From assembly GCA_026985515.1 (NCBI GenBank), contig JALSQH010000074.1, positions 1 to 15,762 on the forward strand: a DNA stretch of 15,762 nt, given 5' to 3'. Under the pieces are notes generated by a model that was given only the letters and a program-made list of their open reading frames with translations, had not been told where the DNA came from and did not search any database. The stretch comes from a bacterium (GTDB lineage: Bacteria > JALSQH01). Of this stretch, positions 12,067 to 13,635 are shown one piece after another (within the stretch, counting starts at the first letter, position 1; each line of letters starts with the position of its first letter). The translations under genes were made by a program, and so were the position numbers.

Positions 12067-13635
12067 TTATCTCCTCCTCGGGATTATTTTTACTATTCTT
12101 CCCTCAAATTCCTCCACTATTTTTTTTAGCAATTCTGAATTTTCAATATCTTTAAGGGTCGGAACAGGTTTTTCCCTTTCCTCAAGCTCCTTCTGTGGCA
12201 GTTTGTTTTCGTAAATGATTTCCGGGTCTCCCAGGTATTTTTTTGCAAGTTCCCTGATTGTTTCCTTTAAATCGGGGTGGGTTTTTAATACCTCTTCCTG
12301 TCTTCTGGACATAATGGGGATTGTAAGTGTGTTGTTTCCCGGATCGTATTTCATTAAACCAAGCAGAGCTATTGATTCTTTTCTCTGTTGCATTAATTTT
12401 CTTTTAAATGTATCAAAGGAGGATGGTTCCTTTCTGCTGTTGCGTGGTTCTCCCGGTAAAGATGTGTGACTCACCCTTTCATTTTTTTTTAATTCAGATT
12501 CTATCCTCTGGTGAGTTGAAGGGGATGGGGAATTTTCGGAGAGAGATGAGATCAGTTTTTCAATTGCAATTAACTTTGGCCTCGTGGCGAGTGATAGAAG
12601 AGCGACTTCAAGTTTTACTTCTGGAAAAGGAGAACTGAGAACATCTATGGATAATAGATTAATTGAGTTGAAGAGGTGGAAGAGTTCCTCTTTGTCAACA
12701 CCTTCAATAATTTCTGCATCTTCCCTGCTACCCTGAGTGAGTCCAAGTTTGATTTTAATAAGTTCATCAAGGTATAGAAGAATCTCTTTCAGAAAATTTT
12801 TAATATCGCTTCTTCCAAGTACATCTTCAGAGAGGATCCTGTCCATTTCCCTGAAGTCTCTTTTTATCAGTGCTTTTACAAGATTTCGTGTTACTCTTCT
12901 CCCTGCTATTCCCAGTATCTTTTCAATGTTTTCAGGATCAAGTTCGGGATCAAGGACCAGTACCTGATCAAGAAGACTCAGGGCATCCCTCAGGGATCCA
13001 TCTGCGGCTTTTGCAATTATTCTAAGGGATTCCTCATCCCGGTATGTGACGCCTTCCTCAGTGAGAATGTGCTTTAATCTCTGAAGGATAAGATCCTCAG
13101 GAATTTTTCTGAAATCAAACCTCTGGCACCTTGAAATGATTGTTGCAGGAACTTTGTGGGGTTCCGTGGTAGCAAAAATGAAGATCACATGGGAAGGAGG
13201 TTCTTCCAGTGTTTTCAGAAGGGCATTAAATGCACTTATTGAGAGCATGTGAACTTCGTCAATTATGTAAACACGGTATCTCCCCTTTACAGGCCTGTAG
13301 TTGACTTTCTCTATGAGATCCCTTACATCGTCAACACTGTTGTTTGAGGCACCATCAATTTCAATTACATCTGGAAATCGGTTTTCCATTATCTCTATGC
13401 AATTTGAACATCTGTTGCAGGGATGCGGTGTGGGACCATGCTCACAGTTCAGAGCCTTGGCGAGTATTCTTGCTGTGGTTGTTTTCCCCACCCCCCTTGG
13501 TCCGGTGAATAGATAGGCGTGTCCTATTCTTCCAGTTTTAACGGCATTCTGGAGTGTTTGGGTGATATGCTCCTGACCTGTGACTTCTTCAAAGGTTCGG
13601 GGACGCCATTTGCGGGCAAGAACCTGATAGGACAT
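12067..13635 (-). CDS. dnaX: DNA polymerase III subunit tau (and probably gamma), DnaX
   Basis: The 522-residue protein is a clamp-loader AAA+ ATPase. It has RKWRP(R/K)TFEEV near the start, Walker A GPRGVGKT (45-52), a four-Cys zinc module (C64, C73, C76, C79), Walker B IIDEVHM (D126-E127) and the SRC arginine-finger motif (168-170). Sensor 2 residues lie in DGSLRDALSLLDQ. The collar domain ends near 355. A polar linker (about 356-415) leads to a C-terminal domain expected to bind the polymerase alpha subunit. It is short compared with E. coli (643), mainly in the linker and C-terminal domains. A run of nine A's at codons 382-385 offers a slippage site that would give a roughly 385-residue gamma form. 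The gene lies just downstream of the SRP RNA and leads ybaB and recR. The Shine-Dalgarno before ATG 13635 is weak. Confidence 0.96.
   Translation of the reverse strand: MSYQVLARKWRPRTFEEVTGQEHITQTLQNAVKTGRIGHAYLFTGPRGVGKTTTARILAKALNCEHGPTPHPCNRCSNCIEIMENRFPDVIEIDGASNNSVDDVRDLIEKVNYRPVKGRYRVYIIDEVHMLSISAFNALLKTLEEPPSHVIFIFATTEPHKVPATIISRCQRFDFRKIPEDLILQRLKHILTEEGVTYRDEESLRIIAKAADGSLRDALSLLDQVLVLDPELDPENIEKILGIAGRRVTRNLVKALIKRDFREMDRILSEDVLGRSDIKNFLKEILLYLDELIKIKLGLTQGSREDAEIIEGVDKEELFHLFNSINLLSIDVLSSPFPEVKLEVALLSLATRPKLIAIEKLISSLSENSPSPSTHQRIESELKKNERVSHTSLPGEPRNSRKEPSSFDTFKRKLMQQRKESIALLGLMKYDPGNNTLTIPIMSRRQEEVLKTHPDLKETIRELAKKYLGDPEIIYENKLPQKELEEREKPVPTLKDIENSELLKKIVEEFEGRIVKIIPRRR
12482..12509 (-). 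promoter_or_regulatory. Putative slippage/frameshift site in dnaX (A9 run with upstream SD-like hexamer)
   Basis: On the coding strand, nine A's (12490 to 12482) span codons TTA AAA AAA AAT (residues 382-385). In frame they contain the slippery heptamer A AAA AAA. Adding one A, or a -1 ribosomal shift, gives TGA after K385. Losing one A gives ATG AAA GGG TGA, ending at residue 387. An SD-like AGAGGA (12509 to 12504) lies 13 bases upstream of the run, within the range that stimulates -1 shifting in E. coli dnaX. I saw no clear downstream stem-loop. The mechanism (RNA polymerase slippage or ribosomal shift) cannot be decided from sequence. Confidence 0.6.

Follow-up and report, generated by a model that had tools for sequence, protein, structure and literature searches.

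Does a run of nine adenines within dnaX allow an uncultured bacterium to make two clamp-loader subunits, tau and gamma, from a single gene? The question is raised by contig JALSQH010000074.1 of GenBank assembly GCA_026985515.1 (GTDB lineage JALSQH01), which was analysed as one stretch of 15,762 nucleotides, hereafter called the window. We suggest that the run (A9) is a programmed transcriptional slippage site that would yield gamma beside tau, and we put the probability of this reading at roughly 80%. A gamma form of about 385 residues beside a 522-residue tau had been proposed for this locus in an original prediction; it is now supported as the property of a class of dnaX genes, by the enrichment of such runs across bacteria, by a threshold at nine A's and by conservation in one family (f11). 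The features of the gene are the following.

12067..13635, minus strand: dnaX, encoding the 522-residue tau, a clamp-loader ATPase (family profiles, Pfam, E. coli gamma structures).
12550..13635, minus strand: codons 1-362, domains I-III, common to tau and the predicted gamma (Pfam, E. coli gamma matches).
12504..12509, minus strand: AGAGGA, a weak SD-like hexamer 13 nt upstream of the A9 (sequence; no accompanying hairpin).
12482..12490, minus strand: the A9, candidate slippage site, codons 382-385, TTA AAA AAA AAT (sequence; evidence for the class from the survey).
12479..12481, minus strand: TGA reached at once with one extra A or a -1 ribosomal shift, predicted to end a 385-residue gamma in LKKK (read from the sequence).
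12471..12473, minus strand: TGA reached after the loss of one A, predicted to end a 387-residue product in LKKMKG (read from the sequence).
12085..12135, minus strand: C-terminal motif ELLKKIVEEFEGRIVKI, confined to tau and conserved in the relative G001 (comparison with G001, ending NLQKILEEFEGRITKII).

The gene is intact over its 522 codons, and its product contains the AAA+ clamp-loader domains and scores above the cut-off of its family (NCBIfam NF004046, 481 bits against a cut-off of 400; TIGR02397, 444 bits). The product matches E. coli gamma chains with E = 2e-88, and the gamma structures align to residues 1-297. Downstream of dnaX the window holds ybaB and then recR, and dnaX-ybaB-recR is a common gene order in bacteria. 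Pfam assigns residues 20-178 to DNA_pol3_delta2, 183-226 to the ATPase lid and, with a score below its cut-off, 235-362 to gamma3, which places the end of the collar at about codon 362 and thus 19 codons before the A9. With domains I-III ending near residue 362, truncation after 385 or 387 residues would leave the clamp-loader ATPase complete and take away the tail.

On the minus strand the run is embedded in AGAGGA-TAGAATCTGAATT-AAAAAAAAA-TGAAAGGGTGA, and its codons specify L382, K383, K384 and N385. It is the only A9 or T9 of the window. One additional A, or a -1 shift, adds LKKK and meets TGA immediately, and with one A fewer the frame continues through ATG AAA GGG, giving LKKMKG, before it also meets TGA. 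The original prediction had placed the run over codons 382-385 just past the collar domain, with a TGA that follows at once in one of the off-frames and three codons later in the other, and with the SD-like hexamer 13 nt before it, and each of these positions is borne out. A second long run is present in dnaX, an A8 at 12120-12127 (minus strand, codon 503) inside the C-terminal motif, with a stop at once in the +1 frame and after five codons in the -1 frame. This A8 is probably due to chance, since A8 runs in the tails of the survey described below carry no double-stop signal.

Because there are so few relatives in the phylum, for which our collection contains only one other genome, G001, we undertook a wide bacterial survey. 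It comprises 224 dnaX genes, namely 143 from genomes that each represent a different family, 80 from named GTDB genomes and the gene of the window. We find that runs of at least nine A's (A≥9) occur 31 times in the tau-specific tails of these 224 genes (39,897 codons), never in the shared N-terminal part of the same genes (82,795 codons), and once in the flanking genes of the same loci (97,134 codons). The tails are thereby enriched about 75-fold over the neighbouring genes. The tail runs span GC contents of 0.32-0.69 and are present in every GC class. When the flank rate is scaled by 2-4 to account for tail composition, about 1-2 of the 31 tail runs are left to chance, and an A≥9 in a dnaX tail would therefore be about 95% likely to be functional at face value; for the window we lower this figure because the run is absent from G001. 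Synonymous shuffling of the tails across species was considered as a null for the number of runs and set aside in favor of the flanking genes: it is weak (16 seen, 10 expected), since the runs contribute their own AAA codons to it.

The tail runs of the survey also differ by length in the stops that follow them. In single-ORF tails, stops within 6 codons in both off-frames accompany 14% of A5, 13% of A6, 19% of A7 and 12% of A8 runs, and 59% of A9 and 70% of A10 runs. With the window included and genes treated as independent, stops are closer at A≥9 than at A5-A7 with p = 1e-8 (Mann-Whitney), and closer than at other positions in the same tails with a combined p = 6e-7. Few cases are as tight as the gene of the window, whose stops lie at 0 and 3 codons. 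The RNA-DNA hybrid inside RNA polymerase has a length of nine, and runs of this length are known to slip (PMC5009743); a jump at nine A's, together with both-frame stops, is the pattern expected from transcriptional slippage.

Several genes of the survey deserve separate mention. L229 has a GC content of 0.69 and carries its run at codon 446 of 513; this agrees with the dnaX of Thermus as described in PMC1088944, and we use L229 as a positive control, its identity being presumed from this agreement. Four of the A≥9 runs, in L088 (Opitutaceae), L031, L223 and L363, belong to the two-ORF type known from PMC3711429: the zero frame comes to a stop directly behind an A9 or A10, and about 125-150 codons lie open in the -1 frame; as the zero frame ends after the run, tau of these genes would need slippage or a shift. 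L049, L013, L219, L335, L372, L322 and L010, which belong to different families, some of them deltaproteobacterial, have an A9 or A10 clustered 30-60 codons from the C-terminus of dnaX, and slippage at these runs would cost the protein no more than its last conserved C-terminal motif.

Conservation could be followed within families that have several members. Family f11 is represented by 22 genomes, with 18 dnaX genes that span the site, and the run is found there at a fixed place just past the collar, as A9 in 17 of the 18 and as A8 in the remaining one. It is always written AAA AAA, though several f11 dnaX genes favor AAG elsewhere, and it persists even though mean pairwise identity drops from 73% over residues 1-345 to about 33-34% in the stretches flanking the run. 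Three f11 members have TTAAAAAAAAA(C/T) coding LKKN, like the window, and one has an A9 followed at once by TGA, again like the window. All four dnaX genes of family f45 keep an A9 or A10. Most of the 24 members of family f6 (L259-L281) have A9-A11, and two have only A7; the run usually lies about 33 codons from the end and in some members at codon 384-407, so that the truncation point would have moved within a single family.

The dnaX of G001 is 69% identical to that of the window over residues 1-367 and 34% identical over the C-terminal part. Its linker and tail contain no run above A7 and thus no A9, and the A7 (GTAAAAAAACATGG) is found elsewhere in the linker than the A9 site, with stops that are not close. 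The gene is split by a contig break in the linker (L032, L033), and the two contig ends share a 31-nt overlap containing a single mismatch (TTTTCCCCCC versus TTTTCTCCCC). The absence of the A9 from G001 is the main evidence against a programmed use. It counts less, however, as the run has also been lost or relocated in some members of families that clearly conserve it; the dnaX run is conserved yet mobile, and its lack in G001 is not unusual. Among the tests that the original prediction set itself, the one on the run in relatives speaks partly against it, G001 being the single comparison available within the phylum.

Could the run be there by chance? A Lys/Asn-rich and weakly constrained linker in an AT-leaning genome could acquire an A9 that has no programmed use, perhaps with slight gamma-like noise as a consequence, and the missing run in G001, the single relative, is what such an origin would lead one to see. 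The original prediction had itself cautioned that AT-rich sequence might produce such a run, and composition does leave it unsurprising: 2.4 A9 runs are expected in the window by dinucleotide shuffling, and 15% of synonymous shuffles of dnaX generate one. The whole assembly of 2.36 Mb contains 21 runs of exactly A9/T9 as well as 3 that are longer; genes carry about 12 of these on their sense strand, and the about 11 genes other than dnaX with a sense A9 (CheA, KdtA, LptG, a glycosyltransferase and others) have no common function or theme. The genes of this genome nevertheless avoid such runs: in 442 kb of coding sequence A≥9 is seen 8 times where synonymous shuffling predicts 33, an approximately fourfold depletion, whereas A6 is not depleted (768 seen, 764 expected). 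Depletion that starts at a given run length is regarded as a sign that RNA polymerase slips there (PMC1088944), and by this reasoning the polymerase of this bacterium would slip at A≥9. The main weight had earlier been placed on the double stop and the domain boundary. Both are present, but the double stop by itself is too weak to serve as proof, as 8 of the 229 other A≥7 runs in the genome likewise have both off-frame stops within 3 codons, and the comparison with other positions in the same dnaX tail gives p = 0.044. Taken by itself the window is suggestive of a function for the A9, and the case is made by the cross-species survey. Chance would explain no more than about 1-2 of the 31, given how much commoner such runs are in the tails than in neighbouring genes, and it would not place close stops in both frames only at runs of nine or more. 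We therefore regard a chance origin of the run in the window as unlikely.

A shortened product could also arise during translation, by a -1 programmed ribosomal frameshift at A_AAA_AAA that is aided by AGAGGA and terminates at the adjacent TGA, in the manner of E. coli dnaX. The heptamer is in frame, the -1 frame does stop at once and the SD-like hexamer is present 13 nt upstream. The hexamer pairs poorly with the anti-SD, however, with only about 4 nt complementary, and it lies further from the site than in E. coli, where the spacing between SD and shift site is 10 nt; it is probably incidental. No 3′ hairpin was detected after the A9, where the RNA folds no better than shuffles do (z = -0.21 and 0.47). 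A frameshift would furthermore not need the second stop, in the +1 frame, and a heptamer needs seven A's, whereas the runs in the survey have nine or more and A7 and A8 tail runs are without the double-stop signal. Finally, the genome encodes two tRNA-Lys genes, UUU and CUU, and in Thermus the presence of two Lys tRNAs has been linked to slippage being used instead of frameshifting (PMC5009743). The choice between slippage and a -1 frameshift had been left open in the original prediction; structure, SD, both-frame stops and tRNAs all weaken the frameshift, which we consider highly improbable here, and the evidence favors transcriptional slippage.

We propose that transcriptional slippage would act as follows. 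While the nine template T's are copied, RNA polymerase would realign the nascent A-tract, and the resulting dnaX mRNAs would be heterogeneous, some with nine A's and others with more or fewer. Those with 9 or 9+3n A's would be translated into the 522-residue tau, and those of other lengths would run into a TGA once 385 residues have been made, where the net change is one A more, or 387, where it is one A fewer. The shortened product would be gamma, consisting of the three clamp-loader domains without the linker and the polymerase-binding tail. What the analysis demonstrates is the anatomy of the site, the avoidance of A≥9 in the genes of this genome, and the enrichment, threshold and conservation of such runs across other bacteria; from these we infer that slippage occurs in this organism, at whatever frequency, and that the resulting gamma would be made and used. 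It speaks against slippage that recombinant E. coli reportedly yields tau alone from the dnaX of several bacteria (PMC3290774).

The closest known system is dnaX of Thermus thermophilus, which uses transcriptional slippage on an A9 (Larsen et al., 2000, as described in PMC1088944 and PMC5009743). Both genes have a sense-strand A9 in a single-ORF dnaX with off-frame stops close in both frames, tau is the zero-frame product in both, and both organisms have two Lys tRNAs. Slippage is known in Thermus, whereas in the window it is predicted. The Thermus run lies about seven-eighths through the gene (PMC1088944), while that of the window, at codon 382 of 522, lies directly past the collar, and the predicted gamma would therefore, unlike that of Thermus, lack the whole tail. 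With E. coli dnaX, where a -1 frameshift takes place at A_AAA_AAG, the window shares the making of tau and gamma from one gene (predicted in the window), an A-rich site past domain III, an immediate off-frame stop and an upstream purine-rich hexamer. It differs in that a stem-loop is lacking, the SD is weak and distant, the site has AAA rather than AAG, the run is longer than a heptamer and a second stop is found in the other frame. Two-ORF dnaX genes with a poly-A run of 7-10 have been described in Chlorobi and others, with slippage proposed (PMC3711429); their run is located at the same junction as in the window, but their zero frame ends just past it and tau needs a shift, whereas tau of the window is the zero-frame product.

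The mechanism is thus already known, from Thermus and, in the two-ORF variant, from Chlorobi and others, and the window is a further case, in the lineage JALSQH01. According to a 2012 review, a frameshift signature is missing from the dnaX of most bacteria, which may produce tau alone (PMC3290774), and whether gamma is made outside enterobacteria and Thermus has so far been left as an open question. Compared with the literature in open-licence papers, the breadth of the run seems under-reported, as 24 of the 143 family representatives carry it. We think it likely that slippage at A9-A10 in dnaX is a widespread and repeatedly gained and lost route to a short clamp-loader subunit, used in about one bacterial family in six; the position of the run would vary from the collar junction to about 33 codons from the end, with loss of the C-terminal polymerase-binding tail as the common effect. 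A truncating slippage site has been described as hard to predict, since no new coding sequence arises from it (PMC1088944). The nine-A threshold for close stops in both frames provides a sequence signature for such sites, and this signature predicts gamma in the present uncultured lineage and in many families.
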